From Actinomyces sp. 432 (GTDB lineage Bacteria; Actinomycetota; Actinomycetes; Actinomycetales; Actinomycetaceae): DNA of 64,000 bases. Numbering within the stretch: the stretch's first letter is position 1; each line of letters starts with the position of its first letter. Made by a program: the position numbers and the translations under genes. The notes beneath the pieces are model-generated. The model ran no database searches and had not been told where the DNA came from. It was given only the letters and a program-made list of their open reading frames with translations. Positions 12,330 through 62,646 of this stretch are shown in pieces. The stretch spans positions 434,001 through 498,000 of the forward strand of contig NZ_CP025249.1 of assembly GCF_009930875.1 (NCBI RefSeq). Direction: 5' to 3'.

Positions 12330-12362
12330 CCGAGGTCGGTGGACGTTACGTGCCGAGGTCGG
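12330..12362 (+). repeat. 3'-end repeat array A, two 23-bp units
   Basis: Two copies of CCGAGGTCGG begin at 12330 and 12353, exactly 23 bases apart, each followed by a T(A/G)GACGT(T/A)ACGT-type spacer. The array starts 22 bases after the tmk stop and reads in the tmk direction. Confidence 0.85.
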
Positions 12363-12372
12363 TAGACGTAAC

Positions 12373-12490
12373 GTCAAAAATGATGACAAACGGGGGCGTC
12401 GACGTCCACGACGCTCTTGAAAATGGCGAAACCATGCGGGTGCCGAACCGCTGTGAGCGGCCACGCGAGTCGTTTGTCATCGATTTTGAC
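12373..12490. repeat. 118-bp element with 20-bp terminal inverted repeats
   Basis: GTCAAAAATGATGACAAACG at 12373-12392 matches the reverse complement of 12471-12490 at 18 of 20 positions. The element is almost the same size as the one upstream of tmk but its ends differ in sequence. It lies between array A and holB. Confidence 0.55.
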
Positions 12491-12650
12491 ACCTAGGCCG
12501 TTCGGCGGGACGTGAAGGTCGGTCGATCTGTCCGCCGAGGCAGGTGCTGGTGGGCTTTGTGGCTAAACGTGTCGGCGGTTGCCGTTAGCCTGGTGCCGTG
12601 ATCCAGTCTTTGACGCCCGCCGCGGAGAACGCAACCAGGTGGTGCCTCGG

Positions 12651-13915
12651 ATGAGCGTGTGGGCCGATGTCGTCGGCCAGGAGAAGGTGGTCGCCGCCTT
12701 CCAAGCTGCCGCGGAGGCCGCACGCATGAGTGTTGCCGCCCGCGGCGCGGCTGCCGACGCCGCACGCGTGGCTGCTGGTACTCGGGGGGTGATTCCAGCC
12801 CCGCTGAAATCGGCATCACCGACTCGGCCGGCGCTGTCGATACGTCGGCCATGACCCACGCCTGGTTGGTGACCGGGCCGCCCGGCTCCGGCCGGAGCGT
12901 CGCCGCCCGCGCCTTCGCAGCAGCCCTGCAGTGCACCGGGGAAGTACCCGGCTGCGGGGTGTGCAAGGCCTGCCGCGATGTGATGAGTGGCGCCCACCCG
13001 GATGTGGTGCGCATGGCCACCGAGAAGCTCCTGATCACGATGGACGAGGTCAAGACGCTGATTGGGGAAGCGCAGCGCCGTCCCTGGACCGGCCGGTGGC
13101 GGGTGATCCTGGTGGAGGACGCCGACCGTATGGCCGAGCGCACCACCAACGTGCTGCTGAAGTCCATTGAGGAGCCGCCCCCGCAGACCGTATGGATCCT
13201 GTGCACGCCCAGCGCCGACGATGTACTACCCACCATCCGCTCCCGCTGCCGGCTGGTGACGCTGCGCGTTCCGCCCGCCGACGCCGTGGCCGAGCTGCTG
13301 GTGCGCCGCGACGGCGCCGACCCGGAGCTGGCGGCCCGCGCCGCCCGCGCCAGCCAGTCCCACATCGGGCTCGCCCGCCACCTGGCCACCGACGCCGGCG
13401 CCTGGGAGCGGCGGCGTCGGCTGCTGCTCGCCCCCGTCTCCCTGCGCAGCGTCGGGGACGCGGTGCTCGCCGCGGCCGACCTGGTGGACGCCGCCGAGGA
13501 GGAGGCGAAGACGGCCACCGCTGAGCGGGACGCCGCCGAGAAGTCGGCGCTGCTGCGCGCCCTCGGCCTGGAGGACGGTGCGCGCGTGCCGCCGTCGCTG
13601 CGGGCTCAGGTACGTCAGCTGGAGGAGGACCAGAAGCGGCGCGCCCGGCGGGCCCGCACCGACGTGCTCGACCGGGCCATGATTGACCTGCTGTCCTTCT
13701 ACCGGGACGTGCTCGCGGTCCAGCTTGGCAGCGACGTGGAGCAGGTCAACATCGACCTTGCCGAGGCCGTCTCACAGGTGGCCGCCGCTACCGTACCGCG
13801 CCAGTCGCTGGCGCGCATCGGTGCCATTGAGGAGTGCCGTGAGCGGCTGCGGTCCAACGCCGCGGTGCTGCTGGCGGTCGAGTCGCTCATGGTGCAGCTG
13901 CGCCCCCAGGCCTGA
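12651..13915 (+). CDS. holB: DNA polymerase III delta' subunit, frameshifted in the assembly
   Basis: HolB is part of the clamp loader that loads the sliding clamp in replication. The N-terminus (MSVWADVVGQEKVVAAFQAA, from ATG 12651) is in one frame; the rest (MTHAWLVTGPPGSGRSVAA with the P-loop, the CGVCKACRDV zinc-finger-like Cys cluster, VILVEDADRM Walker B, LLKSIEEPP) is in another. Adding one G to the G6 run at 12784-12789 joins them into a 421-residue protein (TRGGDSSPAEIG across the join). HolB is essential, and the same type of lesion recurs elsewhere, so I take this as a sequence error rather than a pseudogene. Slippage geometry does not fit a classical programmed -1 shift. Confidence 0.85.
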
Positions 13916-13952
13916 GCACCGCAGGGGCGCGCCGATTCCGCCCGTGGCAGGT

Positions 13953-14882
13953 CTAGCGCGGCTCGGCCGTGGCGGTATCCGCCGGCGCCAGCTCGGTGGC
14001 CGCCCAGGAAGACAGCAGCCGCAACGCCTCCGCGCTCGCGCTGCCCGGTTCCACCCCGTACACGAGCATGCTCATGCCGGGGGTGGTCGCCATGGCGGCG
14101 GACTCGTAGCACAGGTGAATCTCCCCGACGATCGGGTGGTTCACGACCTTCTCGTTGCGGCACACGTAGCGGACGTCGTGGCGCGCCCACAGGTCGGAGA
14201 ACTCCCGGCTGCGCGTGGACAGCTCCCCGATGAGTGCCTGCAGGCACGGGTCGGTCGGGTCCTCGCCGGCGCGCAGCCGCAGCATCGCCACCAGGTCCTC
14301 TGCGCCTGTCTGCCAGTTGGGGAAGAATTCCCGTGCACGCGGGTCCAGGAAGATGAAGCGGGCCATGCTCGGATGCTCGGCTGCTACCTCCGGGATCGGG
14401 TCCACGAACATGGGGTGGTACAGCGCCCGTGCCATCGTGTTGGCCGCCACGTAGTCTCCCGAACCGTTGCGCACCGCAGCAGGCATGGGCATCGCGTCCA
14501 GCAGCCACTGGGTGTCCGGCCGTATGGTGCAGCTGTTGGCGCGCCCGCGCCGACGCCGTATCCGCCCCATAGGGGTGACGGTGCGGGCTAGGTCGATGAG
14601 GTGCTGGCGCTCGGCGTCATCCAGCAGCAGCGCGGAGGCGAGCGCTTCCAGCACCTCATCGGAGGCGCCGGCTGCATTGCCCCGCTCCAGGCGCGTGTAG
14701 TAGTCCACGCTCACCCCTGCGAGCATGGCGACCTCCTCGCGGCGCAGCCCGGGTACGCGGCGGCGCCCGCCGACGACGGGTAGGCCCACCATCTGCGGCT
14801 GCACCTTGGCCCGACGCGTGGTTAGGAAGTCCTTCAACTCAGCGCGGGCGTCGGCGGGCATGGGGGAGGACGACTGGCTCAT
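13953..14882 (-). CDS. XRE-family regulator with MmyB-like ligand domain
   Basis: This 309-residue protein has an N-terminal helix-turn-helix (about 8-75) with RRVPGLRREEVAMLAGVSVDYYTRLERG, typical of XRE proteins fused to an MmyB-like C-terminal domain that probably binds a small molecule. The C-terminal part (110-300) includes the family-typical RARLDARCRAR-free layout with VAANTMARALY and ARFIFLDPRAREFF. I place the start at ATG 14882 (MSQSSSPMPADARAELKDFL); the longer frame to 14951 adds an atypical extension. It is divergent from the peptidase gene at 15046 and may control it, which is inference. Confidence 0.85.
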   Translation of the reverse strand: MSQSSSPMPADARAELKDFLTTRRAKVQPQMVGLPVVGGRRRVPGLRREEVAMLAGVSVDYYTRLERGNAAGASDEVLEALASALLLDDAERQHLIDLARTVTPMGRIRRRRGRANSCTIRPDTQWLLDAMPMPAAVRNGSGDYVAANTMARALYHPMFVDPIPEVAAEHPSMARFIFLDPRAREFFPNWQTGAEDLVAMLRLRAGEDPTDPCLQALIGELSTRSREFSDLWARHDVRYVCRNEKVVNHPIVGEIHLCYESAAMATTPGMSMLVYGVEPGSASAEALRLLSSWAATELAPADTATAEPR

Positions 14883-15045
14883 GCAAGCAAGGTTAGACGC
14901 CAGATGTAGGGCGAGGCAGGCCCGCCCAGGCCCTGTCAGGCGTTTCGGCACGACGCTGGGGCGAGCCTAACGGCTGGGTCGCAATGGGGAGGAATCCACC
15001 TTGCACAGTCAGGGCCGCTTGAGCACGTAACCGTAGGCTGCACGC

Positions 15046-16656
15046 GTGAGTACTCATTCGGGACGCCCCCGCCGCGTTCTCGCGGCTCTCACCGTCGTCC
15101 TCACCGCGACTGGCCTGGCCGCGTGCGCGGTGCTGCTTCCCGCCACTGATGTCAGCCCCTCCGCGGCGGCCCGGGCGACCGACGCCGCCGCCTCGGTGCC
15201 CGCCGGCCTGGAGGACTTCTACTCCCAAGACGTCGACTGGTATCCGTGCGTTGATACGGGCATGGCCGAGGCCGAGGGCGCCGCCGACTTCACCTGCGCC
15301 TATGCGAGCGTGCCGCTGGACTACTCCGATCCGAGCGGGCGGCGCATTGATATCGCGATGAAGCGCCGTGCCGCCACTGGCACCGCGATCGGCAGCCTGT
15401 TCATCAATCCGGGCGGACCGGGAGGGTCGGGTGTCAGCCTGGTGGAGTCCGCGGAGGGCTACTTCTCAGACGCCCTGATGCGGTCATACGACGTGATCGG
15501 CTTTGACCCGCGGGGCGTGGGCAGCTCCACCGCCATCGACTGCCTGACCGATGCCGAGCTGGATGAGGAGCGCGCTGGGTCGGGGGACCAGGCGAGTGCG
15601 GGCAGCGAGGCGTCGGACGCCGCTGCTGCCCAGGACGCGGTGGCGGAGTATGTCGAGTGGTACGAGGGCAAGTGCGCGGCGAACACTCCCGCTGACCTGC
15701 TGGACCACGTCGACACGGTCTCTGCGGCCCGGGACTTGGACGTGCTGCGCGCCGTCATTGGCGAGGACCTGCTGACTTACCTCGGCTATTCCTACGGAAC
15801 ATACCTAGGCGCCACCTACGCCGAGCTCTTCCCCAGCAACGTGGGCCGCATGGTCCTCGATGGCGCAATCGACCCGACTCTCAGCGCCGGGGAGGTCACC
15901 TTGGGGCAAGCGGCTGGCTTTGAGAAGGCGCTGCGCGCTTATGTGGAGGACTGCCTCAGTGGCAATAAGTGCCCGTTGCGGGGCGATGTTGATGCCGGCG
16001 TCTCCCAGATCCAGGACTTCCTGCAAGTCACTGCGGATGCGCCGATTCCGACTTCCGACCCGGACCGGCCCCTGACCTATTCGCTCGCGGAGTCTGCGAT
16101 TTTGGGGATCATGTATCAGTCGGAGTCATGGTCGGTGCTGAGTGAGGGGCTGGACCAGGCGATGAATCATGACGACGGCTCGGTGCTGCTGCGCGTCGCC
16201 GATCTGTTCGCCTCCCGGCAAAGTGACGGCACCTACAGAGGCAATGGCAATGAGGCGATCAATGCCATCAACTGCCTGGACTATCCCGTGGTCGGCGACG
16301 CCGACAGCTGGGAGGCGGAGCGCGAGCAGCTTGAGGCGATCTCTCCGACCTTTGGCGCGGACCTGGGTTATTCCGACCTGTACTGCAGTGTCTGGGGGCA
16401 TGCGTCCAGCCGGGAGCGCGCCGAGATTCACGCCTCCGGCGCCGCCCCGATCCTGGTGGTGGGCACCACCGGTGACCCGGCCACGCCTTATGCGTGGTCG
16501 CAGGCCCTCAGTGAGCAGCTGGAGGACGGCCATCTGGTCACCTGGAGGGGTAATGGGCACACCGCCTACGGGCGAGCGGACGCCTGCGTGGCCGATGCCG
16601 TTGACAACTACCTGCTGGCGGGCGTCCTGCCGGAGGAGGGGCTGACCTGCGGCTGA
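15046..16656 (+). CDS. Secreted S33-family tripeptidyl aminopeptidase lipoprotein
   Basis: This 536-residue alpha/beta hydrolase resembles SlpD/Tap of streptomycetes, which cleave tripeptides from protein N-termini outside the cell. A signal peptide with lipobox GLAAC (Cys27) predicts a lipoprotein. The oxyanion region NPGGPGGSG (about 125), the nucleophile Ser in YLGYSYGTYLG (about 250), a C-terminal TAP-like domain with VGTTGDPATPY (Asp) and GNGHTAYG (His) complete the triad. Start is GTG at 15046. Cys residues near the C-terminus may form disulphides. Confidence 0.88.
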   Translation: MSTHSGRPRRVLAALTVVLTATGLAACAVLLPATDVSPSAAARATDAAASVPAGLEDFYSQDVDWYPCVDTGMAEAEGAADFTCAYASVPLDYSDPSGRRIDIAMKRRAATGTAIGSLFINPGGPGGSGVSLVESAEGYFSDALMRSYDVIGFDPRGVGSSTAIDCLTDAELDEERAGSGDQASAGSEASDAAAAQDAVAEYVEWYEGKCAANTPADLLDHVDTVSAARDLDVLRAVIGEDLLTYLGYSYGTYLGATYAELFPSNVGRMVLDGAIDPTLSAGEVTLGQAAGFEKALRAYVEDCLSGNKCPLRGDVDAGVSQIQDFLQVTADAPIPTSDPDRPLTYSLAESAILGIMYQSESWSVLSEGLDQAMNHDDGSVLLRVADLFASRQSDGTYRGNGNEAINAINCLDYPVVGDADSWEAEREQLEAISPTFGADLGYSDLYCSVWGHASSRERAEIHASGAAPILVVGTTGDPATPYAWSQALSEQLEDGHLVTWRGNGHTAYGRADACVADAVDNYLLAGVLPEEGLTCG

Positions 16657-16751
16657 GCGCCTGCCGGGAGCCTGCGGGGCAGGCCGGCAGGGCAGGCCCG
16701 CGTGCCAGAGTGCCGACGGCGGGTGGCCGGGGCGCATTGGCGGCGGGCGTT

Positions 16752-17834: not shown

Positions 17835-17956
17835 ATGGCCAGGGTACGCAGCTCTGGGTCCGCTTTTGTGCTGCAAACCACCTCACGTGATTGGGCTGCC
17901 GGATTGCGTGTCCCGGCCTTCACGCGGTAGCGTGCGTGTCGCCGCTGCGGCGGCAG

Positions 17957-18029
17957 GCCACCTTAGCTCAGTCGGCAGAGCGATTCACTCGTAATGAATA
18001 GGTCGTGGGTTCGATTCCCACAGGTGGCT
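17957..18029 (+). tRNA. tRNA-Thr (anticodon CGT)
   Basis: This is a complete cloverleaf. The acceptor stem GCCACCT pairs with AGGTGGC, with discriminator T at 18029. The D arm contains AGCTCAGTCGGCAGAGC. The anticodon arm ATTCA-CTCGTAA-TGAAT has anticodon CGT (reads ACG, threonine). The T arm is GTGGGTTCGATTCCCAC. CCA is not encoded. Confidence 0.95.
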
Positions 18030-18195
18030 CTGAGCTTTCGCCTCCCCCAGGGGTTCGTTCAACGCTGAAACATACTCCGACTTGCCGGTTATTGGATTTC
18101 CTTGCTTCAATTGGCCATATATGCCTATCCTGTTACCCGGGATGATCCCGCGCTAGAGGCGGGGCCCGCATATGTCTGTGGCAAGGAGGACCAAT

Positions 18196-18528: not shown

Positions 18529-18605
18529 CCTGGGCGTTTCACGCCCACCCGGGCGCGGTGCCGCGGCGTATTCGCCCGGCGCCGACGCCGAAGGCACGTT
18601 TTCCG

Positions 18606-18637
18606 GGCCCCTGGGTCCTTTTTAGGACCCAGGGGCC
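18606..18637 (+). terminator. Strong hairpin after lsr2
   Basis: The arms GGCCCCTGGGTCC and GGACCCAGGGGCC form a perfect 13-bp stem closed by the loop TTTTTA. It lies between lsr2 and gpmA, 36 bases before the gpmA start. No T run follows it, so it could also act as a leader structure for gpmA. Confidence 0.7.
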
Positions 18638-33252: not shown

Positions 33253-33307
33253 GGGAGCCTCCTCGTGCATGGGTACAGCTGCCGACAGTGCGGCTGTGTC
33301 ATTACTA

Positions 33308-33363
33308 CCGACCTCGGCACGTAACGTCTACCGACCTCGGTAGGTAACGTCTACCGACCTCGG
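33308..33363 (-). repeat. 3'-end repeat array B, three 23-bp units
   Basis: CCGACCTCGG begins at 33308, 33331 and 33354 on the plus strand, exactly 23 bases apart, with GTAACGTCTA-type spacers. Read on the minus strand it gives CCGAGGTCGGTAGACGTTAC, the direction of the ABC exporter gene whose stop is 81 bases upstream (33444). Confidence 0.88.
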
Positions 33364-33443: not shown

Positions 33444-35456
33444 CTACTCCAGTTCGAAGGCGCCGGTGTAGAGCTGGTAGTAGGTGCCGCGCTGCTCGAT
33501 GAGCTGGTCGTGGTTGCCGCGCTCGATGATGCGGCCGTGGTCCAGCACCATGATCGCGTCGGAGTTGCGCACCGTGGACAGCCGGTGCGCAATCACGAAC
33601 ACCGTCCGCCCCCGCATGAGGTTGTCCATGCCGGCCTGCACCAGTGCCTCGGTGCGGGTGTCGATGGAGCTGGTGGCCTCATCCAGGATCATCACCGGCG
33701 GGTCGGCGACGGCGGCGCGGGCGATCGACAGCAGCTGAGCCTGTCCCTGGGACAGGCTCGAGCTATCGCCCGAGATCACCGTCTGGTACCCCTGGGGCAG
33801 ACGGCGGATGAAGCCGTCGGCGTTGGCCAGCTTGGCCGCCTCGATGCACTCCTCGTCGGTGGCGTCCAGGCGCCCGTAGCGGATGTTGTCCATGACCGTG
33901 CCGGTGAACAGGCGCACGTCCTGGAGCACCACGCCCAGCGAGCGGCGCAGGTCTGCCTTGGCGATCTTGTTGATGTTGATGCCGTCGTAGCGGATCTTGC
34001 CGTCGTCGATGTCGTAGAAGCGGTTGATCAGGTTGGTGATCGTGGTCTTCCCGGCGCCGGTGGCGCCCACGAAGGCGATCTTCTGCCCGGGCTTGGCCCA
34101 CAGGGAGACGTCGTGGAGGACCTCCTTGACGCCGTCGTAGGAGAAGTCCACGTGCTTCATGACGATCTCGCCCCGCAGCCGCGTGTAGGTGACGGTGCCA
34201 TCCGCCTGGTGGGGGTGGCGCCAGGCCCACACGTCGGTCTTGCGGTCGGCGGGCTGGACACCGCCGTCGGCCGTCTCGACGGCGTCGACCAGGCCCACAT
34301 ACCCGCCGTCCTGCTCGGGCTGCTCATCGATGAGCGCGAAGACTCGGCCGGCGCCGGCCAGGCCCATGGCGATCAGCGCCACCTGCTGAGAGGCCTGGTT
34401 GATGGTCTGGGACAGCTGCCGCACCATCGTCAGGTAGGAGACGATGATGCCGACGGTGATGGTGCCCATGCCGGCGAAGCCGATGTTGGTGACCTGCAGC
34501 TGAATGAGCAGGCCGCCAACCAAGGCGATCAGCACGTACAGCAGGTTGCCGAGGTTGCCCATGACGGGGCCGAGGATGTTGCCGTACTGGTTGGCCTTCT
34601 CCGAGTCGGAGAACAGCTGTCGGTTCAGGGCGTCGAAGTCGGCCTTGGCGGCCTCCTCGTGATTGAAGACCTGGACGACCTTCTGCCCGCCCATTATCTC
34701 CTCGATGAAGCCCTCCTCGGTGGCCAGTGACTGCTGCTGGGCGACCATGTACTGCGAGGACTTCCCGCCCAGGCTGCGGGTGGCGGCGACCATGATGGCG
34801 GCCACGACCAGTACCAGGATCGTCAGCCAGAGGCTGTAGTAGAGCATCATCGCCAGCATCGCCCCGAGCGTCAGGCCGGACTGAATGAGCGTGGGCACCG
34901 ACTGGCCGATCAGCTGGCGCACGGCGTCGGTGTCATTGGTGTAGGTCGACATGATCGCGCCGTGGGCGTGGGTGTCGAAGTACTTGATCGGCAGGGACTG
35001 CATACGGTCGAACATGTCGTCGCGCATGTGCTTGAGCGAGCCCTGCGTGACCACCGCCATGATGCGTGAGTACAGGAAGCTGGTGATCACCCCGAGGGCG
35101 TAGACCACGCCCATGGCGGTGATAATCCGCACCAGCGTGGGCATGACGGCGTCTAGGCCCGCGCTCAGGCCGGGGGTGATCACCTCGTCGACCACCCGCT
35201 GCATGAAGATGGAGGCGACCGTGGATGCCACCGAGGCGATCACGATGCTGATGGCGACGACGATCAGCTGCCACGGGTAGTAGTGGAAGACATAGGCCAG
35301 CAGCCGACGCGCCGGGCGGTCGATGTGCGGCAGGTCGTGCGGGTCAGACTGGCCATCGGGGTGCTGTGCGGTGGCGCTGGCCTCGACGACGGCCTCCGGC
35401 TGCTCGGCGTCGGGACGCTCCTCGGGCCGGTCGGTGCGGTTGCGCGCCATGATCAC
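33444..35456 (-). CDS. Heterodimeric ABC exporter subunit, catalytically competent NBD
   Basis: This 670-residue fused permease/ATPase has a charged N-terminal tail of about 45 residues, six membrane helices (about 55-390) and a nucleotide-binding domain. Walker A is GATGAGKTT (about 463), the signature LSQGQAQLLSIARA (about 570), and Walker B VMILDEATSSID with the catalytic Glu; the switch His is in VIAHRLSTV. It is the canonical partner of the degenerate subunit upstream, like BmrCD or LmrCD multidrug exporters. The start overlaps the upstream stop by four bases (GTGA); the ATG at 35450 is an alternative. Confidence 0.9.
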   Translation of the reverse strand: MIMARNRTDRPEERPDAEQPEAVVEASATAQHPDGQSDPHDLPHIDRPARRLLAYVFHYYPWQLIVVAISIVIASVASTVASIFMQRVVDEVITPGLSAGLDAVMPTLVRIITAMGVVYALGVITSFLYSRIMAVVTQGSLKHMRDDMFDRMQSLPIKYFDTHAHGAIMSTYTNDTDAVRQLIGQSVPTLIQSGLTLGAMLAMMLYYSLWLTILVLVVAAIMVAATRSLGGKSSQYMVAQQQSLATEEGFIEEIMGGQKVVQVFNHEEAAKADFDALNRQLFSDSEKANQYGNILGPVMGNLGNLLYVLIALVGGLLIQLQVTNIGFAGMGTITVGIIVSYLTMVRQLSQTINQASQQVALIAMGLAGAGRVFALIDEQPEQDGGYVGLVDAVETADGGVQPADRKTDVWAWRHPHQADGTVTYTRLRGEIVMKHVDFSYDGVKEVLHDVSLWAKPGQKIAFVGATGAGKTTITNLINRFYDIDDGKIRYDGININKIAKADLRRSLGVVLQDVRLFTGTVMDNIRYGRLDATDEECIEAAKLANADGFIRRLPQGYQTVISGDSSSLSQGQAQLLSIARAAVADPPVMILDEATSSIDTRTEALVQAGMDNLMRGRTVFVIAHRLSTVRNSDAIMVLDHGRIIERGNHDQLIEQRGTYYQLYTGAFELE

Positions 35457-46152: not shown

Positions 46153-46227
46153 GGCTGGTCCTTTTGCTGAGGTGAATGGCGCAGTGGTCAGTGTCCAACG
46201 GGAGCGGACCGCATTGCGCCGCTTCGA

Positions 46228-46329
46228 CCGAATTCGGCACGTTACTTCTACCGAACTCGGCACGTTACTTCTACCGAACTCGGCACGTTACTTCTACCGA
46301 ACTCGGCACGTTACTTCTACCGAACTCGG
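46228..46329 (-). repeat. 3'-end repeat array C, five 23-bp units
   Basis: CCGAA(T/C)TCGG begins at 46228, 46251, 46274, 46297 and 46320, each exactly 23 bases apart, with the spacer CACGTTACTTCTA nearly unchanged. On the minus strand it reads CCGAGTTCGGTAGAAGTAAC, the direction of the CocE-type gene. That gene's TAG stop at 46317 lies inside the array. Confidence 0.93.
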
Positions 46330-48262
46330 TGAGGGGGAGCGGCGGGGTGAGCCGTCAGATCGACGGTGGTGACGACGACGGCGCTGGGGTGGTCGGCGTC
46401 GTGCAGCACCCGCATGGCCACCGGGGCGCCGTCGGCCGGGTCGGCCACGCTGTAGCGCGGCCAGTTGGAGCCGGCCAGGTCCAGGCGCAGGCGGTGTCCG
46501 GCCGGCAGGTGCACGCCGGTGGCCCACATGTCCACCTCCGCCTCCACGGGCTCGCCCGGTGTGAGCGGGTCGCGCCGATCCAGGCCGGCGTGGGCGCTGA
46601 GCCGCAGCACGCCGTCGGTCAGCAGGGTGGAGGTGCCGTCCGGGGCCACGTCGGTCAGGGCGGCGTGCAGGTGGGCGTCGACGGCGTCGGCCGCCACCCA
46701 GGCCTCAAGCCGCACCGGCCCGAGGATCGTCACCGGCTCGGTCAGCGGCGCACTGGTGAACACCGCGACGTCCCCGCGAGCCTCAACATCGCGCTGGTCG
46801 TGCGGGCCGGCGTCCTCCGGCGGCCCCATGAGCATCTGGCCGCCCGCGGTGGGCACCGGATCCGCGGGGTCATGCACCCAGGCGGTGAAGCCCGGAGCAG
46901 CCTCATGGGCGGACCGTTCCCGCGGCGAGACCGCATCGGCCGCTCCGCTCGTGACACCGTCGGACTGTGCGGCGGGTTCAATCCGCCCCTCTCCTGGGGC
47001 GTCCAGTATCCCGCCCGAGCCCAGGTGCCAAGCCTGTTCGACGGCGTCGGGGGCGGGCCAGGCGGGCAGGTCGATCCACCGGTCCGCGCCCATGATGTAA
47101 ACGCGTACCGGGTCGCGGGGCAGCCGCGCCGCCGCCTGCGCGTCCCCGAGCACCGCCTTCCAGAAGTCCAGGCTCAACTCGCCCAGGCCGACGTCGTCGA
47201 TGCCGCCGCCGGGAAGTCGCGCCCGGCCAGGTGCCCGTCGAAGGTCAGGTGAGTCCAGGGGCCGATGACCAGGCGTACGTCGCCGGGGCGTCCCCGCGCC
47301 GCCGCACCGGCGGCCATGGCCGTGAAGTTGCGCAGGGTGCCGCCCTGGAACAGGTCGTACCAACCGGACATGTGCAGCGTCGGCACGTCCAAGTCGGCCA
47401 GGGCACCAGTCGGGTAGGCGACGGATTCCCAGTAGGCGTCGTGCAGCGGATGGTTCACCCAGTCCACCACGTGCCCGCCGGCCCGGTGCGCGGCCGCCAG
47501 ATCGCGTGCCGCCTGCCCGATCCCGACCCGCTTTAGATATGGGGTGAAGTCCTCCACCGGCTCGGGCAGTGTCTCCTGCGGGGCGTCCGCGCGACCGTCG
47601 CGCCACAGCCCGGTGCGTACCTGCTGGCGCGCCCACTCATACGACGGACCCTCCAGCAGCACACCGCCGCGCATGGCCAGGTCATCGTCATAGGTGGAGG
47701 GAGACACCCAGGCGGTCATGCCCGCCAGGTTCTCGACGCTCGCCAGGGCAGCGGTGAACTGGGTGGTGGTCAGGTAGGAGTTGCCGAAGGTGATCACCCT
47801 CCCGTCGCACCAGGGCAGTGCGGCCAGTGCCGTCCGTGTGGCCACGCCGTCGGCGGCCTCATCGAAGTAGAAGCGGAAGCCGCCGTCGGAGATGTCCGTG
47901 CCGCGACAGGCCTGGGCGACCACCGCAAAACCCGCGGCGACGGCCCGATCCAGGCTCACGCCCGCCTGCATGCCCAGCACCCCCGCCATGAGGCCGGGCG
48001 TGGCCGGGTCCGCGCCCGTGACTTCGGCGACCATGGGGCGCCAGGCGCCGAAGTAGGGGCAGCGGGTCAGCAGCGCCGGGTGGGCGGCGTCGTCATCGGG
48101 ACGCACGACGTCGGCGCGCAGCACGGTCCCGTCCGGCATCGGGACCTCCAGTACCTCGTGGATGGCGCGGGAGGCGGGTCCGTCCGCAGCGGGCAGCTTC
48201 AGGGCGGCGCGCACGGAGGCCGGGATGGCGGTGGCCCGGGTGTTTTCAGGGCCATCGGTCAT
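46317..48262 (-). CDS. CocE/NonD-family hydrolase (S15-like), frameshifted in the assembly
   Basis: A cytoplasmic alpha/beta hydrolase with a C-terminal jelly-roll, related to cocaine esterase and X-Pro dipeptidyl peptidase. The catalytic Ser is in TFGNSYLTTTQF and GPWTH carries the likely His. The frame breaks at GRDFP; adding one C (G3 at 47211-47213 on the plus strand) gives GRDFPGGGIDDVGLGELSL and a 648-residue protein. ATG 48262 has an AGGAG site. The last codons (HRVR-stop) are encoded by the repeat array. It follows the GH78 gene by 94 bases, probably in one operon. Confidence 0.8.
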
Positions 48263-51351: not shown

Positions 51352-51422
51352 AGAATAATTGCCGGGGTGGGCGCAGTCAACGGGGACGGCGAGCCGTCCG
51401 CGGCCGCCACCACCGCCTTCCC

Positions 51423-51810
51423 GAGTACGTCCTCGGCGGCTCGGGTACGACCGCGTGAGCCCCAGGACGACCTCCGCGCCCACCTGAAGACAACCTCGGC
51501 GCGGCGAGTACGTCCTTGTTCGCCCGAGCACGACCTCGGCGCGGCGAAAACGTCCTCATCAGCCCGAAACCCTCCACGATGTGGAGGGTTTGGGGAGTAC
51601 GAGGTCGTATTCGGCTGGTGTGGGGTGGTCGAGTACGACCTCGTGAGCCCGAATACGCCCTCATCGGCCCGAATACGACCCTGTGTGCTTGCTCGACTAC
51701 GTCCTCATGAGCCCCAAAACGACCTCGGCGTGGCGAATACGTCCTCGTGCGCCCGAGTACGTCCTCGGGCGGGCAAACATGTCATCGCCCGGCCGAGAAC
51801 GACCTTTTTA
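51423..51810 (-). repeat. Degenerate repeat array, about 15 units of a GAGGWCGTATTCGGGC type
   Basis: On the plus strand ACGWCCTC and close variants recur about 15 times in 390 bases, often as GCCCGAATACGACCCT or GCCCGAGTACGTCCTC. Units are irregularly spaced (roughly 20-30 bases). A perfect 11-bp hairpin (AAACCCTCCAC/GTGGAGGGTTT) lies inside at 51567-51591. The array begins 40 bases after the stop of the DUF559 gene (minus strand). The rest of this 547-base gap holds no gene. Confidence 0.7.
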
Positions 51811-55093: not shown

Positions 55094-55183
55094 GGTGTCC
55101 TCCTTTGACGCGGCGTTCTACTTCGGGCGCTGGGGGTGGTGGTCCGAGAGGACACGGGGCGCCTCGGACCACCGCCATATCTA

Positions 55184-55239
55184 CCGGTCTCGGTGTGTAA
55201 CTAATGCCGGTCTCGGTGTGTTACAAGTGCCGGTCTCGG
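55184..55239 (-). repeat. 3'-end repeat array D, three 23-bp units
   Basis: CCGGTCTCGG starts at 55184, 55207 and 55230 on the plus strand, 23 bases apart. On the minus strand it reads CCGAGACCGG followed by CAYTWGTTAC-like spacers, in the direction of the GH78 gene whose stop is 13 bases upstream (55252). The last unit ends in GGTAGATATGGCGG, shared with array E. Confidence 0.85.
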
Positions 55240-55251: not shown

Positions 55252-58200
55252 TTAGCCGCGCTGGGCGGCGGGGACCTGGGGTGCGTTCGGCGCCACTTCG
55301 GCGATGACGGCGTCAAGCGCGGCCTTTACCGCCTCCATGCCGGGAATGAAGCCGTACATGGTGGCAGCTCCGGGCACGACCCGCGCCGTCGAATCGAGCT
55401 CATGGGTGAGGAATCCGGTGAGCGTGGCCGCCGGGTCCGCCATGTAGGCGCCGTGCTTGCCGCGCACCGCCTCCACCGCGCGCTCCCAGGCCGCATCATC
55501 GTCCATCAGGTCCCGTACCGTCCGGATCTCTCCGTTACCGTCGCGCAGCTGCGCGGGCAACGCCACCGTGCGCTCATGCAGCCCGTGGCCGAGCACCTCC
55601 GGCGCCACACCGGGCAGCACCAGCTCGGCACTCGCCCCCACCGGCACCTGCACGCTCACGTGCAGCGTGTCGCCGTCGAGCTCCCAGGCGGTGCGGGCGG
55701 TGCCCAGCGGCAGTCGCCGCACCACGCTCGCGGAGGTGAAGCCGTGGCCCACCTGCGGGGCCACCCGCAGCGCGCGCCCGCCGACGTCGACCACGTCCAG
55801 GCCGGCCAGGTCCGTAATCAGCCACTGGGTTACGGCGCCCAGGGCGTAGTGGTTGAAGCTCGTCATCTCCCCGGGGTTGATGTCCCCGTTGGGCAGCATG
55901 GAGTCCCAGCGCTCCCAGATGGTGGTGGCGCCCATGGTCACCGGGTACAGCCAGCTGGGGCACTCCCGCTCCAGGATGAGCCGGGCCGCCGTGGCCGCCT
56001 GGCCGCCCTTGACCAGCGCCGTCGGCACCAGCGGGGTGCCGACGAAGCCGGTGGAGATCCGGAAGGACCGCAGCCGCACCAGGTCCGCCAGGCGCTGCCC
56101 CGCCCCGGTCACGCGCCGCGGCGTGTCCAGCAGATCCCAGGCCAGTGCCTGGGCGTAGACGGTGGCGCAGTCGGACAGGATCAGCCCGTCGGCGGTGACG
56201 TAGGCGTCCAGGTACGCTTCCCGCACGCTCGCGGCCAGTGCCTCGTAGTGGGCGGCGCGCTCGGCGTTGCCGAGGATCGCCCAGGCGCGAGCGGTGATGT
56301 CCGCGCTGCGGGCGAAGTAGGCGGTGGCCACCACATCCGGGTCGGCCTTGGCGGCGCCCGGGTTGTCCGGCGGGGCGTCGGGGTCCAGCCAGTCGCCGAA
56401 CTGGAAGCCGCCCCGCCACAGGTGCGAGTCCCCGGCCACGGCGGCGACGCCGTCGACGAAGCAGCTCATCGCCTCCACGCTGGCGGCCAGCACCGCCGGG
56501 TTCCCGGTGGCCTCATATACCGCCCAGGGCACCAGGGTGATGGCGTCGCCCCAGGCACACGTGAGCTTGTTGCCCTCCAGCACATCGGGGGAGACCACCG
56601 GCAGGGCGCCGTCCGGGGTCTGGGCGGCGGCCAGGTCCCTCGTCCAGGAGTTCAGGAAGGCGGCGGCGTCGTACAGACTCAGGGCGGTGGGGGCGAAGAC
56701 GCCGATGTCCCCGGTCCAGCCCAGGCGCTCGTCGCGCTGCGGGCAGTCGGTGGGGACGGTGATGAAGTTGTCGATGGCGGACCAGCGGGTGTTCTCCACC
56801 AGCTTGTTCACGAGCGGCTGGGAGCTGGTGAACCAGGCGGACCGATCCATGCCTGCGGAGACCACGCGCGCCGTGAGGGAGGCGAGCAGCGCGTCGTCGT
56901 CGCCGGGGAAGCCCTCGACCTCCACATAGCGGAAGCCGTGCTGGGTCAGAGTGGGGGCGAAGATCTCGGGTCGTTCGGCGGTGCCGGTTCCGGCCAGGGT
57001 GACGCGGTCGGTGCACTCCGCATTGCGCAGCGGGCGCGTGCCCAGCTCGCCGTGCTCCAGCACCTCGGCGTGGCGCAGGGTGATCACGTCCCCCGCCTGG
57101 CCGCCGGGCACCGTCAGGCGCACGTGCCCGGTGAGGTTCTGCCCCAGGTCCACCACGCGTCTGTTCGACGGCGTGGTGATCACCTCCACGGGCCGCACCT
57201 CGCCGACGACGGTGGGCAGGGGCAGCGTGGTCGGCTCCAGCGCCGCCTCGGGCAGGTCGAGGACGGCGACCGGGGATTCGGCCTCCGCCTCACCCAGCGC
57301 GGGCAGGCGCAGGTCGGTGGACTGGCCGTTGTACAGGTCGTTGGCGGTGATATTGGAGGGCCGCCAGGCCCAGCCGCCGTCCGTGCCGACGACGGTCGTG
57401 CTCGCGCCGTCGCTCAACTCCACCTGGGCCAGCAGCCAAAGGTCCTGGCCGTAGACGGCCTCGCGCATGTTCCAGGTGAGGTGGCCGCGGTACCAGCCGT
57501 TGCCCAGGACGACGGCGAGTTCGTGCTCACCGGGGGTCAGGACGGTGGTGACGTCGTGCGTCTGCACCAGGATGCGTCGGGAGTACTCGGTCCAGCCCGG
57601 GGCGAGCTCGTCGGTGCCTACCTTGACGCCGTCTATGAAGGCCTCGTAGGTGCCGCCGGCGGTCAGGTGCAGGCGGGCGGCGGTGGTGCCGGCGGGGACG
57701 GTGATGCGGCGCACCATCACCGGTGCCGGATCGGTGCGCCGGTTGCCGGGGGCGGTGATGGGGCGGGCGGTCCAGTCGTCGCGTTCCAGCAGCCCGGTCT
57801 CGACGACGGCGGGCGCCGACCAGGGGGACCAGACTCCGTCCTCCCCGGCAACGCGCACCCGCCAGGCGGCGCTCTCACGCGACTTCAGCGGCGGGGCGGG
57901 CCAGGGGACGAACAGGGAGTCCGGGCCGTCCAGGGCGAGCACCTCGGGGGCTCCGGGCAGGGCGCCGACGCGGCCGCGGACCACCTCGATCTCGGCGTGG
58001 GCCTGGGCCCAGCCGGCGGGGGCGGACGGCACTTCCCAAGACAGCGCCGGGGTGGGGCCGGTGCCGCCGAGGACGGGTCGGTCGGGGCGGTGGTGGTCCA
58101 CGCGCAGGCCGACCGGAGCGGTGAGAGCGCCGACCGGATCGGTGACCTCCGGCGCGGGGACGGTGAGAAGGTTGGCGTTGGGGGAGAGGGAGCCGGCAGG

Positions 58201-58347
58201 ACTGTCGGCCGTGGTCCGCTTGATGTCCGTGCCAATGGAGTCGGCTGAGCGCCTCGGGGACGTGGGGCTGTCACCTGCGGGGAATGCGGCGCTGCCGCCT
58301 GCGCCCCCGGCGGGGGAGGCGGATTGATTTGAACGGTGTGCGGGCAT
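55252..58347 (-). CDS. GH78 alpha-L-rhamnosidase
   Basis: This is an intact 1031-residue enzyme. It has N-terminal beta-sandwich domains (to about 420) with WYRGHLTWNMREAVYGQDLW, the catalytic (alpha/alpha)6 barrel with TDCPQRDERLGWTGDIGVFA (general acid Glu) and TIWERWDSMLPNGDINPGEM (base Glu), and a C-terminal beta domain (to the HGL motif). No signal peptide, so it acts on imported substrate. I chose ATG 58347 (GGAGAG site); the GTG at 58380 would put a LacI-type operator inside the gene. Close in architecture to the first GH78, suggesting duplication. Confidence 0.94.
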   Translation of the reverse strand: MPAHRSNQSASPAGGAGGSAAFPAGDSPTSPRRSADSIGTDIKRTTADSPAGSLSPNANLLTVPAPEVTDPVGALTAPVGLRVDHHRPDRPVLGGTGPTPALSWEVPSAPAGWAQAHAEIEVVRGRVGALPGAPEVLALDGPDSLFVPWPAPPLKSRESAAWRVRVAGEDGVWSPWSAPAVVETGLLERDDWTARPITAPGNRRTDPAPVMVRRITVPAGTTAARLHLTAGGTYEAFIDGVKVGTDELAPGWTEYSRRILVQTHDVTTVLTPGEHELAVVLGNGWYRGHLTWNMREAVYGQDLWLLAQVELSDGASTTVVGTDGGWAWRPSNITANDLYNGQSTDLRLPALGEAEAESPVAVLDLPEAALEPTTLPLPTVVGEVRPVEVITTPSNRRVVDLGQNLTGHVRLTVPGGQAGDVITLRHAEVLEHGELGTRPLRNAECTDRVTLAGTGTAERPEIFAPTLTQHGFRYVEVEGFPGDDDALLASLTARVVSAGMDRSAWFTSSQPLVNKLVENTRWSAIDNFITVPTDCPQRDERLGWTGDIGVFAPTALSLYDAAAFLNSWTRDLAAAQTPDGALPVVSPDVLEGNKLTCAWGDAITLVPWAVYEATGNPAVLAASVEAMSCFVDGVAAVAGDSHLWRGGFQFGDWLDPDAPPDNPGAAKADPDVVATAYFARSADITARAWAILGNAERAAHYEALAASVREAYLDAYVTADGLILSDCATVYAQALAWDLLDTPRRVTGAGQRLADLVRLRSFRISTGFVGTPLVPTALVKGGQAATAARLILERECPSWLYPVTMGATTIWERWDSMLPNGDINPGEMTSFNHYALGAVTQWLITDLAGLDVVDVGGRALRVAPQVGHGFTSASVVRRLPLGTARTAWELDGDTLHVSVQVPVGASAELVLPGVAPEVLGHGLHERTVALPAQLRDGNGEIRTVRDLMDDDAAWERAVEAVRGKHGAYMADPAATLTGFLTHELDSTARVVPGAATMYGFIPGMEAVKAALDAVIAEVAPNAPQVPAAQRG

Positions 58348-58367
58348 GAGGCTCTCCGGGTCTTCGT

Positions 58368-58379
58368 TGAACCGTTTCA
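58368..58379. promoter_or_regulatory. LacI-type operator before the second GH78 gene
   Basis: TGAACCGTTTCA is a 12-base near-palindrome with a CG centre, as in LacI-family operators. It ends 21 bases before the ATG at 58347. It resembles the site at 51338, suggesting one shared regulator that is encoded elsewhere. Confidence 0.55.
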
Positions 58380-58504
58380 CGGATTGGGGTGAGCGTATGC
58401 GGGCTGCGGGGATTCGTCAACCGTAGCGCATGTGCGGTCGAGCGCCTCCGGCCTTGGGCGGCGGTGCTTGTGTCCTCCCGCGTACTGCACGACCCTGGGC
58501 GACG

Positions 58505-58650
58505 TTAAACGACCTTGGTGCCTGTTCCACGACCCCGGGGTGGTCGTGGAACAGGCACCAAGGTCGTGGAGTATCACCAAGGTCGTGGAATGCGCACAGG
58601 GTGAATCATTAGCGGCGTCCCGCTGAAGGACTATCACCAAGGTCGTGGAA
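58505..58650. repeat. Perfect 26-bp inverted repeat plus two direct copies
   Basis: ACGACCTTGGTGCCTGTTCC and the next six bases (58509-58534) match the reverse complement at 58542-58567 perfectly, with a 7-base loop (58535-58541). Two direct copies of TATCACCAAGGTCGTGGAAT follow near 58571 and 58632. This gap (58348-58854) holds no gene. Confidence 0.85.
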
Positions 58651-58854
58651 TGGGGGTGCAAGAGACGGCTGTCAGTCCCATGCCGGACAACGTCAAGCCC
58701 GATCTGGCCTGGTTGGGCGCAGCACCACTTGCTGCCGCGTGCTGCTCAGATGTGAGTCGCTCCGTGTGTGGCCGCTCGGTGCGGGGAGGATCCACGCCGT
58801 TGGCGCCAGGATCGCGGAGACTCGGGCGGGGCGGTGGCTCCGGCTACCGGGTGG

Positions 58855-59463
58855 CTAGGCCTTGCGCAGGCGCTCGGCGAAGTCTCGCACCACGGCCGCC
58901 ATGTCCACGCTGCGGTCCAGCAGCCACTCCGCCTGCACGCCCTCAATGAGCGCCACAAGCTGCGTGGCGGCCAGATCCAGGTCCACGTCTTCGCGCAGTC
59001 GCCCCGCCTCGTGCTCGCCCTCCAGGTCTGCGCGTACCGCCGCCCGGAAGCGACGTGTGAGGCCAACGATGTAGTCGTGTGCGGGGTGCTCGGGATTGAC
59101 CGCCTCGGCGCGCATGACGGCGTCGAGCTGGATGAGGCCCGGAATGGTGGCGTTGTGCTCCATGACCAGCGGGAGGGCCTCCAGCAGGCCGTGCTCGGTG
59201 AACAGCCCCGCGCGCCACTCGGACTCGGTCTCCTCGCGTCGTTTAAGGACCGCCTCAAGCAGCTTCTCCTTGCTGCCGAAGTGGTGGCGCAGCAGGGTAT
59301 GGCTGACCCCTACGGCGTCGGCGATCTGCCGCAGGGAGAGGTTGTTGTAGCCCTGCTCGGCGAAGACCTCCATGGCGGCGTCGGCGATGGCGGCGCGGCG
59401 TCGTTCCCCGTTGGCATAGCGCGTGCGCCCGTCGGGCGGGGCGACGGCGTCTGAGTCGGACAC
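58855..59463 (-). CDS. TetR-family transcriptional repressor
   Basis: This 202-residue regulator has the N-terminal TetR helix-turn-helix (NLSLRQIADAVGVSHTLLRH, about 36-55) after EVFAEQGYNN, and a helical ligand domain of BetI-like length. It is divergent from the sugar MFS gene; a good operator lies between them. Start is ambiguous: GTG 59463 has a GAGG site six bases away; ATG 59475 and the longer frame to 59535 are less likely. The ligand is possibly an imported glycoside or aglycone, by context. Confidence 0.88.
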   Translation of the reverse strand: MSDSDAVAPPDGRTRYANGERRRAAIADAAMEVFAEQGYNNLSLRQIADAVGVSHTLLRHHFGSKEKLLEAVLKRREETESEWRAGLFTEHGLLEALPLVMEHNATIPGLIQLDAVMRAEAVNPEHPAHDYIVGLTRRFRAAVRADLEGEHEAGRLREDVDLDLAATQLVALIEGVQAEWLLDRSVDMAAVVRDFAERLRKA

Positions 59464-59659
59464 GGTCAACCTCATCTCCGGGCAAGTCGCGGTTCTCGGG
59501 CGCGCGGGCCCGGCGGGTGGAGCCGGGTCCGCCACAAGCCTAGACGATTGGTTTCTGGGGCCTGGCGGCCGTATCGCCGGGGACTGTTGGTGACTTGCGT
59601 TGACTCACCGCGACCCGCGAGGAGAACCTAGACCGTATTGGAAGTGATTTAAATCTTGA

Positions 59660-59678
59660 CCAACATGGTGCATGTTGG
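59660..59678. promoter_or_regulatory. TetR operator overlapping the MFS promoter
   Basis: CCAACATGGTGCATGTTGG has perfect 8-bp arms with a 3-base centre. It begins inside a TTGACC -35 element (59656-59661) and fills most of the spacer to a GATATG/TATGGT -10, so a bound repressor would block the MFS-GH1 promoter. Confidence 0.7.
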
Positions 59679-59763
59679 GATATGGTGTTGACCGCAAGGC
59701 GCCGCGGGCTCCGTGGGCGCACCATCGCCGGCACTGTCGCCGGCCGCATATCAAGGACGATTG

Positions 59764-61139
59764 ATGACTACCCCACCCAGTACCAGGCGTGAAGGCGCCG
59801 GCGCCCCCACGCCTCCACCGCCGTCGACGGCGCCTATGTGCAGCAGGCGGCCGAAGACGGGTATCCCGCCGGCGGCGCGGCGATGAGTCCGGAGGACGAG
59901 GAGGCGGCGCGCATAACCGCCAAGTTCGGCAACCCGCGCAAGACGATCTGGCTGGTCCTCGTCGCCGCCATCGGCGGATACATCATGATGATGGGCATGG
60001 GCACGGCTCTCCAGCTGCGCCTCAGCGTCATCAACGAGGACCTCGCCACCCTGGTCTACTCGCGCGCCACCTCCCTGTCCGCGCTGCTCATGCTCGCCGT
60101 GGTTCCGATCGTAGGGGCCCTGAGTGACCGCACTCTTTCGCGGTTCGGCCGCCGTCGCCCCTGGATCGTCGGCGGCTACCTTGTCGCTTTCCTGTGCTTC
60201 CTCATCATCGGCTACTCGACGAGTTCCATCGTCATCATCGCGGCCTACGTCATCGGTATCGCCTCCGCCCAGGCGGGCTTCAATGCCTATTCCGTCATCC
60301 CCGTAGAGGGCGTTCCCGGAAACATGCGCGGACGCATCATGGGCTTCATGGGCCTGTGCGGCGCGCTCGCGATGAGTGCAGGCTCCTACATCGCAGGCGC
60401 CCTCGTTGACATCTCCACCGTCCTGCTGATGACCGTGCCCCCGAGCCTCGCGATCATCTGCGCCCTGCCGCTCCTGTTCCTCTACCGGGACCCGCGCCAC
60501 GGCCCCGAGGAGATCCCCCAGGGCGGCCCGCTGGACATGTTCGCCCACATGTTCGTCAATCCGGTCAAGCACCCGAACTTCGGCATCGTCTGGCTCTCCC
60601 GCTTCCTCGCCGGCGCCGGCATGGCCGCCTTCCTCGGCTTCTTCGTCCTCTACCTCATCATCGGCCTGCACATGACTCCGGCCGAGGCCGGCGCCCAGGC
60701 GGGGCACCTGTCCCTCATGAGCGCCCCCGTCTCCATCATTGTCTTCATCGGCTCCGGCTGGATCTCCGACAAGCTCGGCATGCTCAGGCCCCTCGTGGCC
60801 CTCGCCGCCATCATCATGGCGGCCGGCCTGATCATCGCCGCCACCTCCACCACCATCGCAGGTTTCACCGTCGCCTGGATGGTCTTCGCCGTCGGCCAGC
60901 CGATGTACCTCACCGTGGATCTCGCCCTGTGCGCCAAGGTGCTGCCCAACGAGGCTGACGCCGGCAAGGACATGGCCGTCTTCGGCCTCGCACTCAACCT
61001 CGGAAACGTGCTTGTGCCGGCCGTTGCCCCGACGCTGCTCGGTCCCGCGTCAAACAACTACCCGTTGTTGTGGGGCACGGCTGCTGCGCTCGTCTTCGCA
61101 GGCGCCCTGCTCATGCCGCTCGTCAGGGGCGTCAAGTAG
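59764..61139 (+). CDS. Sugar MFS transporter, N-terminus frameshifted in the assembly
   Basis: This 12-helix transporter (458 residues restored) has the start KFGNPRKTIWLVLVAAIGGY and the loop motif GALSDRTLSRFGRRRPWI after helix 2, as in glycoside-cation symporters. The ATG at 59764 has a nearby AAGGA site, but its frame closes after about 40 residues; adding one C to the C5 run at 59804-59808 joins it to the rest (GAPHASTAVDGAYVQQ). Without the fix, the GTG/ATG region near 59838-59883 would be the start. It is coupled to the GH1 gene 94 bases downstream. Confidence 0.88.
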
Positions 61140-61233
61140 GCGGGCCGGCCCCACCACGCAACCTGCCGCAGCGTCCGGCCCCCGGCTCTCCCGCAGCACT
61201 AACCAGCCAACACACCACGGAGATAATCACCTC

Positions 61234-62541
61234 ATGACTTCCCCTGCATCCTCGCCGGCACCCGCCGCCGGCTCCTCTGCTGCAACCCGCACCACCCCCT
61301 TCCCGGAGGGATTCCTCTGGGGCACCGCCACCGCCTCCCACCAGGTGGAGGGCGGCAACACCAACAACGACGTCTGGCTGTACGAGCACGTACCGAACAC
61401 CATGTACGCCGAGTCCTCCGGTGACGCCTGCGACCACTACACCCGGTACCGGGAGGACATCGCCCTGCTCGCCTCCCTGGGACTGAACTCCTACCGCTTC
61501 TCCCTGGAGTGGAGCCGCATCGAGCCGGCCGAGGGGGAGTTCTCCGCCGTAGCCATCGCGCACTACCGCGACATGCTGCGCGCCTGCCGCGAGCACGGGC
61601 TGACCCCGATCGTCACCTACCACCACTTCACCTCCCCGCAGTGGCTCATCGCCCGCGGCGGCTGGGAGGACGCCGACACACCCGCCCTGTTCGCCCGCTA
61701 CTGCCGCCGCGTCACCGAGGAGCTCGGCGACCTGTTCGACATCGCCTGCACCATGAACGAGCCCAACCTCGCCATCCTGCTAGGGGAGATGGGCATGTGC
61801 GAGCGCGAGCCGGCCCAGCGGCTCGGCAACCCCACTTGGGAGGGCGCCGCCCGTGCCCTGGGGACGACGGCGGACAAGGTCGCCGGCTTCCAGCTCTCGG
61901 CCACGCCGCAGGCCTACGAGATCAAGTGCGCCGCCCACAAGGCGGCGGTTGAGGCCATCAAGGCCGTCAAGCCCGAGATGCAGGTCGGCTGGACCCTGGC
62001 CAACTCCGACTTCCACGCGGCCCCAGGCGGCGAGGACCGGGTGGCGCGCATGAACGAGGAGAACAACCTGCGCTACCTGCGCGTAAGCGAGGGCGACGAC
62101 TTCGTCGGGCTGCAGACCTACAACCGCACGGTGCTCGGCCCCAACGGCCCGGTCCCGCCCGAGGAGGGCGCAGTGCTCAACCAGGGCGGGGAGGAGATCT
62201 GGCCCTGGGCGATCGGCGCCGTGGTCCGCCAGGCCTGGGACGCGGTGCAGATGCCGATCTACGTCACCGAGAACGGGCTGAACACGGAGGACGACACCCA
62301 GCGGGTGGACTTCCTGCGCACCGCCATCGGTGAGGTTGGCGCCGCGATCGCCGACGGGGTGGACGTGCGCGGCTACATGTGCTGGTCCGCCATGGACAAC
62401 TTCGAGTGGATCTTCGGCTACGGCCCCAAGTTCGGCATCATTGCCGTCGACCGGGATACGCAGGCGCGTACCCCCAAGCCCAGCGCCCATGTGCTGGGGG
62501 AGATCGCCCAGTCCAACGGGGCGGTCCTGGACTGGAACTGA
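61234..62541 (+). CDS. GH1 beta-glucosidase
   Basis: This 435-residue enzyme is related to the GH1 at 44878 (FLWGTATASHQVEGGNTNND; FDIACTMNEPN with acid/base Glu near 175; IYVTENGLNT with nucleophile Glu near 345; YMCWSAMDNFEWIFGYGPKFG). The short Ala/Pro-rich N-terminus of about 25 residues is unlikely to be a signal peptide. It is transcribed with the sugar transporter, so it probably hydrolyses the imported glycoside inside the cell. ATG 61234 follows a GGAG element. Confidence 0.93.
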   Translation: MTSPASSPAPAAGSSAATRTTPFPEGFLWGTATASHQVEGGNTNNDVWLYEHVPNTMYAESSGDACDHYTRYREDIALLASLGLNSYRFSLEWSRIEPAEGEFSAVAIAHYRDMLRACREHGLTPIVTYHHFTSPQWLIARGGWEDADTPALFARYCRRVTEELGDLFDIACTMNEPNLAILLGEMGMCEREPAQRLGNPTWEGAARALGTTADKVAGFQLSATPQAYEIKCAAHKAAVEAIKAVKPEMQVGWTLANSDFHAAPGGEDRVARMNEENNLRYLRVSEGDDFVGLQTYNRTVLGPNGPVPPEEGAVLNQGGEEIWPWAIGAVVRQAWDAVQMPIYVTENGLNTEDDTQRVDFLRTAIGEVGAAIADGVDVRGYMCWSAMDNFEWIFGYGPKFGIIAVDRDTQARTPKPSAHVLGEIAQSNGAVLDWN

Positions 62542-62591
62542 GATGGTCGGCCCGGCCATCTACGGGTGGTCGGGCCGCCTCGCGTTCCGCG

Positions 62592-62646
62592 CCGAGGTCG
62601 GTCGAAATAACCGCCGAGGTCGGTAGTAGTTACGCATCGAGGTCGG
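62592..62646 (+). repeat. 3'-end repeat array E, three 22-23-bp units
   Basis: CCGAGGTCGG starts at 62592 and 62614, and a one-base variant at 62637. It reads in the direction of the GH1 gene, whose stop is 51 bases upstream. The last unit continues into GGTAGATATGGCGG, identical to array D's end. Confidence 0.85.

Follow-up and report, generated by a model that had tools for sequence, protein, structure and literature searches.

Tandem 22-23 bp repeat arrays behind stop codons: a polar 3'-end element common to many species of Actinomyces

Results

Repeat arrays in the 64-kb window

The DNA analysed, called the window here, comprises 64 kb (positions 434001-498000 of a 3.14-Mb contig) of the genome of Actinomyces sp. 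432 (G000). It contains five arrays of short direct repeats, A-E, each at the 3' end of a gene (Table 1). The arrays had been described in an earlier note on this DNA. All five were located again by eye and with a 20-bp weight matrix, and the matrix detected no further array in the window. Each of the five reads in the same direction as the gene whose stop codon precedes it, as the note had stated. It had also placed the array starts 0-81 bases after the stop. This holds for A, B, D and E, but not for C, where the gene's own TAG stop (46317-46319) lies inside the first unit. The gene names are consistent with Pfam for thymidylate kinase, ABC exporter, alpha-L-rhamnosidase and GH1; the name CocE is only compatible, PepX_C being the sole Pfam domain of that gene.

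Table 1 Repeat arrays A-E and the leader of array A (positions in the window)
Feature	Position	Strand	Units and steps	Stop to first unit (nt)	Gene context
Array A	12330-12372	+	2 units, 23 bp apart	22	3' of thymidylate kinase (tmk), stop 12305-12307
C-rich leader of array A	12308-12329	+			spans stop to array
Array B	33298-33363	-	3 units, 23 bp apart	80	3' of ABC exporter, gene 33444-35456 (-)
Array C	46218-46329	-	5 units, 23 bp apart	-13	3' end of PepX_C/CocE-like gene 46317-47636
Array D	55174-55239	-	3 units, 23 bp apart	12	3' of alpha-L-rhamnosidase, gene 55252-58380
Array E	62592-62656	+	3 units, 22 + 23 bp steps	50	3' of GH1 gene, end 62541

The core of array D is CCGAGACCGG and not CCGAGGTCGG, as had been given before, and a stable hairpin lies 3' of this array. 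The third unit of array E starts with TCGAG. The last units of the arrays are unlike the inner ones (often ..TAGATATGGC). For CCGANNTCGG 15 matches were counted in the window, compared with 2.8 expected and a maximum of 9 in 100 shuffles.

Transcripts of the five arrays are predicted to fold more stably than shuffled sequences (z -2.35 to -5.06), in the form of several small hairpins. At gathering score, the sole Rfam match in the window was a tRNA (17957-18029), and the arrays match no structured RNA family. No intrinsic terminator (GC-rich hairpin plus T-run) overlapping A-E was detected in the three stretches scanned; terminator-like sites are located 3' of array A (12453) and of array E (62720). 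An inverted pair, GTCAAAAATGATGACAAACG and a near-complement about 90 nt further on, was seen by eye 3' of array A (12370-12495). Directly 5' of tmk (11452-11574) there is an inverted repeat whose arms, 27 nt each and 69 nt apart, are 85% complementary.

Other periodic repeats are present as well. Units of 20-21 bp similar to GACGGTTCGTACCTGGTGGT occur at 10650-10910, first direct and then inverted (74-nt arms, 73% complementary), and related arrays were found elsewhere in G000 and in the relative G005. A third family with a period of about 20 bp, with units like ACGACCTCGGCGCGGCGAA and ACGTCCTCATCAGCCCGAA and short inverted parts, lies at 51420-51800. Further intergenic families of G000 and G005 have periods of 19-26 bp, for example CACCAAGGTCGTGGA, also found near 58554 of the window, and GGTGCAAAGCGTCGTAGCA. 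Both genomes hold several unrelated periodic families.

Placement and polarity in the genome

The survey of G000 covered 1.259 Mb, made up of the window and 60 further stretches (46 picked for hits, 14 without). Genes were called with our own script instead of the annotation. With the weight matrix 248 units of at least 13 bits were found, compared with 7 in the reversed sequence. The steps between units on the same strand were 23 bp (116 cases), 22 bp (16) and 21 bp (1). Two cores at a distance of 22-23 bp occur 197 times in the genome and 0 times in the control, palindromic cores being counted on both strands. A chance origin of the arrays is excluded. The non-random nature of the family, claimed in the earlier note, was also confirmed with CCGANNTCGGNNNNNGTWAC, which occurs 51 times in the genome, against 0 for the reversed pattern.

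A first list contained 114 arrays. After removal of 23 lone units that had no core next to them, 91 remained, 6 overlapping called genes and 85 intergenic. Sense arrays, which lie behind a stop codon and have the orientation of its gene, account for 66 of the 85 (42 in co-directional and 24 in convergent gaps), with a median distance of 28.5 nt after the stop. The others are reversed in co-directional gaps (13) or lie in divergent gaps (6). For the co-directional gaps, 42 sense against 13 antisense arrays correspond to a binomial P of 1.1e-4. When gaps of at least 30 nt were considered, 24 arrays were found in 137 convergent gaps, compared with 6 in 145 divergent gaps. Eight of the 13 reversed arrays end at most 65 nt from the stop of the gene that they face. 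Facing arrays are few in G000, e.g. 989286 and 989346.

The 42 co-directional sense arrays are located at a median of 25 nt from the stop, whereas random placement in the same gaps gave a mean of 85 nt and a minimum of 29 nt in 5000 trials. At least 100 nt besides the array are present in 37 of these 42 gaps, but only 262 of 682 co-directional gaps without array have this length. Where a sense array is present, a co-directional gap resembles the end of a transcription unit. The polarity is strong, but not absolute, because of the reversed arrays and those in divergent gaps. Thus, the fixed position and polarity proposed earlier stand as a strong sense bias and a 3'-end location, while the word fixed does not apply to the 19 of 85 intergenic arrays that are reversed or lie in divergent gaps. 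Equal numbers in both orientations or a location far from gene ends, which had been named as arguments against the idea, were not found.

Structure of units and leader

A unit consists of the core CCGARNYCGG and a spacer, with a period of 22-23 bp. From 5' to 3', an array opens with a C-rich and G-poor leader of about 20-30 nt, followed by between two and nine units, each 22 or 23 bp long, of which the last often has a divergent spacer. The main unit forms in G000 are CCGAGGTCGG-TAGACGTTAC-GTG and CCGAGACCGG-CACTTGTTAC-GTG or ACA, sometimes both in one array. In 243 units of this genome, a single base was present in 98-99% at positions 8-10 and in 91-93% at positions 1-3. In G000 the ending GGC was found in 24 or more of the 80 last units and in one inner unit among those listed. 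The gene's own stop codon lies inside 23 of 105 sense arrays of three genomes, in 12 cases TAG (unit positions 11-13) and in 5 cases TAA (positions 17-19).

The 30 nt upstream of sense arrays in G000 contain 52% C and 22% G. For the noncoding leader from stop to array the values are 55% C and 19.5% G, compared with 37% C and 34.5% G after 588 array-free stops, and the C-richness declines beyond about 30 nt. Arrays that are not in sense orientation have a leader, too (45% C, 22% G); therefore, the leader belongs to the element. A C-rich and G-poor upstream region, as looked for in Rho-dependent terminators, is thus found at the sense arrays of G000 and is weaker in G041. In distant species this leader is less pronounced, with C and G contents of 46 and 29% in G028, 40 and 27% in G020 and 35 and 30% in G041, the loci of the last being assigned by elimination in this comparison and in that of frame closing.

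Folding of the sense strand was more stable than that of the antisense strand in G030 (-35.6 vs -25.7 kcal/mol, P = 5.5e-5) and in G005 (-27.3 vs -22.4 kcal/mol, P = 0.024). No sense advantage was observed in G000 (-20.1 vs -19.4 kcal/mol, P = 0.39). Covariation at 12 pairs around the core showed no consistent excess in three genomes; isolated excesses at 12:18 (G000, G030) and 4:7 (G000) have no backing from neighbouring pairs. Hairpins (z < -2) are not clearly enriched at array ends, with 15 of 66 compared with 15 and 12 per 100 control ends in two windows.

Distribution in relatives

Of the 49 genomes of the genus, 20 share core and period, with 25 to 676 two-core matches for any spacer (control at most 3), and the remaining 29 have at most 9 matches. 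The clade's own unit form was detected in 8 of 149 genomes, all within the genus and one with a single match. Exact matches to a 20-mer come from Actinomyces succiniciruminis, A. glycerinitolerans and A. ruminis records. The spacer is mostly uniform inside a genome and different between the species examined: TAGATCTTACGTA in G030, TCGAAATAACCAT in G005, TTCAGTTCCGCA in G028, GACATATGGCACC in G020 and TCGAAAACGCCA in G004. Hence, the earlier definition of the family by one 23-bp sequence has to be replaced, as the 10-bp core and the period of 22-23 bp are conserved and the spacer is species-specific. The order-wide two-core search covered periods up to 22 bp. G297, from another genus of the same order, has 75 two-core matches (control 0), many more than the other genomes from outside the genus. 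Phages gave no match, and no viral contig carries the two-unit pattern. Literature searches yielded no publication on the array family among the matches listed.

Sense orientation also prevails in relatives. With lone units included (12 of 35 in G005, 4 of 32 in G030), the sense share of intergenic arrays is 28 of 34 for G005 and 20 of 30 for G030. In 24 loci of G028, G041 and G020, 17 of 19 arrays are sense. Many species of the genus have the arrays as a polar 3'-end element. In G004 and G036, two-unit arrays face each other in pairs about 40-50 bp apart and could form long hairpins.

Arrays are found at the same orthologous gene ends far above chance. Comparison of G000 with G030 (126 ends) revealed arrays in both genomes at 10 ends and in one only at 5; for G005 (80 ends) the numbers are 8 and 4. 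In each case about 1.2 shared ends are expected from the margins. At gene end C1:1346807, searched in 12 genomes, an array with the stop in its first unit occurs in 6 of the 10 genomes shown, with 1 to 6 units by matrix; in G005 TCG replaces TAG and the gene ends at TAA six bases on. A second orthologous end has arrays in 5 of 9 genomes and a weak unit in G015. The ABC-exporter end of array B has arrays in 5 of 11 genomes shown, one being an uninformative fragment, and G030, G014, G047 and G039 carry them there. The tmk end has arrays in 2 of 10 genomes shown, plus one degenerate unit. For 18 usable shared pairs the median local score was 35.5 for orthologous and 28 for non-orthologous arrays, a slight gain only. 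The downstream flanks of shared arrays are alike beyond chance in 7 of 17 cases. The place of an array is retained while its sequence turns over.

On a tmk tree with 30 of the 49 genomes, the distribution of arrays requires a minimum of 4 changes (2 forced by starred branches; the shuffled mean is 8.5). G029 lies inside the carrier group of this tree, yet it is essentially array-free. Its stretches L201-L220 (400 kb including N runs) gave 3 weak units, compared with 7 in the reversed sequence. The 96 array genes yielded just 4 usable orthologous ends in G029, in which hairpins in place of arrays were looked for; z < -3 was obtained for 0 of these 4 and for 11 of 60 controls. As a group, these few ends have 39% C, 40% G and no C-rich leader.

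Discussion

We infer that the arrays are sites for a putative sequence-specific factor that marks the ends of transcription units, probably by termination, and assign to this reading a probability of roughly 40%. Each unit would be a recognition site for the factor, which would co-evolve with the spacer. The factor would act on transcription leaving the gene, most likely with the array as pause or roadblock, and its target could be DNA or RNA. The C-rich leader in the nascent RNA would be the place where Rho is loaded, and transcription would stop at or soon after the array. The combination of Rho loading at the leader and a roadblock at the array is our proposal.

Sites for a factor explain most of the observations with the fewest additions, namely polarity, 3' place, core, the period of about two helical turns, leader and species-specific spacers. 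Recognition of the sequence rather than of pairing is suggested, because core positions 8-10 and 1-3 are highly conserved and no consistent compensating changes were seen. The loss of arrays in G029 is what the loss of a trans-acting factor would predict. The 13 reversed and 6 divergent arrays, the missing hairpin enrichment and the weaker leader in distant species count against this reading. The earlier note had suggested a 3'-end function such as termination or RNA stability. The association with gene 3' ends stands; both functions are possible readings of the sequence.

Yeast Reb1 and the TTF-I sites of rDNA are examples of roadblock termination. The arrays are similar to protein-roadblock termination as presented in PMC10310618 in being repeated, apparently sequence-read sites behind genes; with a factor that is putative only, this is a resemblance and not a membership. 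Like the hairpin-cluster intrinsic terminators covered in PMC8355165, the arrays occur within about 80 nt behind stops, and those of the window form small predicted hairpins. In contrast to these terminators, they are conserved by sequence and not by pairing, and both strands fold equally in G000. A bacterial roadblock-terminator system in the full sense, in which a single factor specific to the genus shifts its specificity along with the spacer, works with a Rho-loading leader and delimits a sizeable share of transcription units, would go further and is rather unlikely.

The serious rivals of the factor sites are a selfish repeat with biased survival and a 3'-UTR RNA element. A REP-like or minisatellite-like repeat, copied and homogenised in each genome and surviving mainly behind stops, where harm is small, is conceivable but doubtful. 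Units alike within a genome and different between species fit such a repeat, and uniform spacers are expected from its spread as well. The same is true for orthologous arrays barely more alike than non-orthologous ones, for 1 to 6 units at one gene end and for the other families of about 20 bp in intergenic DNA of G000 and G005. However, harmless placement alone does not yield a polarity of 42:13, and the sites recur at orthologous ends. The lack of the two-unit pattern in viral contigs also argues against it.

REP/BIME elements are described in PMC2817692 as hundreds of short extragenic, species-specific, partly palindromic repeats in composite arrays, associated with RAYT transposases. Numerous short extragenic, species-specific and partly palindromic repeats in composite arrays are also what we observed. 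Unlike REP/BIME, the units are direct and not alternating, as seen from the 133 same-strand steps of 21-23 bp, and they are polar towards the preceding gene. Furthermore, they have no fixed GT(A/G)G head; the spacers start with TAG, TCG, CAC, TTC, GAC or CGG. GTAG spans the border of core and spacer in the G000 and G030 forms and is absent from those of G028, G020 and G004. A RAYT (Y1-type) transposase (PF01797) was detected in 0 of the 49 genomes of the genus, while the control search was positive in 5 of 14 known genomes. Membership in REP/RAYT was therefore rejected.

According to the second rival, the units bind a protein or fold as a hairpin chain in the 3'-UTR and stabilise or process the mRNA 3' end, with no role in termination. 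Such an RNA element is unlikely. It agrees with sense polarity and 3' location and with the folding of the five window transcripts beyond shuffles, and the sense-strand folding advantage in G030 and G005 fits it at least as well as the factor sites. The missing advantage in G000 and the lack of consistent covariation around the core, where the 12:18 and 4:7 excesses are isolated, speak against it.

Dialects of DNA uptake signals differ by species. Signals of this kind, as in Neisseriaceae and Pasteurellaceae, here partly co-opted near gene ends, are a very improbable explanation. A conserved core with species dialects and the inverted pairs in G004 and G036 would suit them. They are also known in terminators, mainly in tail-to-tail regions, and are given as 9-11 nt long with generally at least 1,000 copies per genome (PMC1852404). 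The arrays share with the Neisseria and Pasteurellaceae signals of that source a repeated short sequence near gene ends, sometimes in inverted pairs. They differ in being tandem, direct and sense-polar with 22-23 bp, and such tandem arrays are not known as a feature of uptake signals.

A polar site for replication or chromosome organisation has a similarly slim chance. Several hundred regularly built sites are distributed around the G000 chromosome, but their polarity goes with the genes. They show no replication-strand bias: with dnaA as the origin and a terminus half-way round, the leading strand carries 33 of 66 sense arrays, compared with 626 of 1103 genes, and other terminus positions give 33-35. 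A site gap at 1.35-1.96 Mb, seen with the strict pattern, was filled by the looser pattern. The dnaA domain was found with equal scores at both contig ends (645-1127; 3137454-3137936), as if the assembly ends overlap.

Backup translation stops, by which arrays would close all frames behind a gene, had been suggested in the earlier note and have next to no probability. In their favour are the stops inside sense arrays, a period that is not a multiple of three, so that frames rotate, and 59 of 80 G000 arrays closing two or three frames (29 of 80 antisense, 41 of 80 in one shuffle), but just 15 of these 80 arrays close all three. As a general function the backup is refuted outside the clade, where arrays that leave every frame open make up 5 of 6 in G028, 1 of 5 in G020 and 5 of 8 in G041.

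Short intergenic repeats of bacteria are often attributed to selfish spread or simple hairpins. The present family stands out by its polarity to the preceding gene, its core with a species spacer and its shared gene ends, without the transposase that explains REP. The roadblock system, if true, would be the bacterial equivalent of termination by Reb1 or TTF-I. If the arrays terminate transcription, they would be an undescribed class of terminators, and species pairs with different spacers, together with the array-free G029, would offer a direct route to the putative factor.
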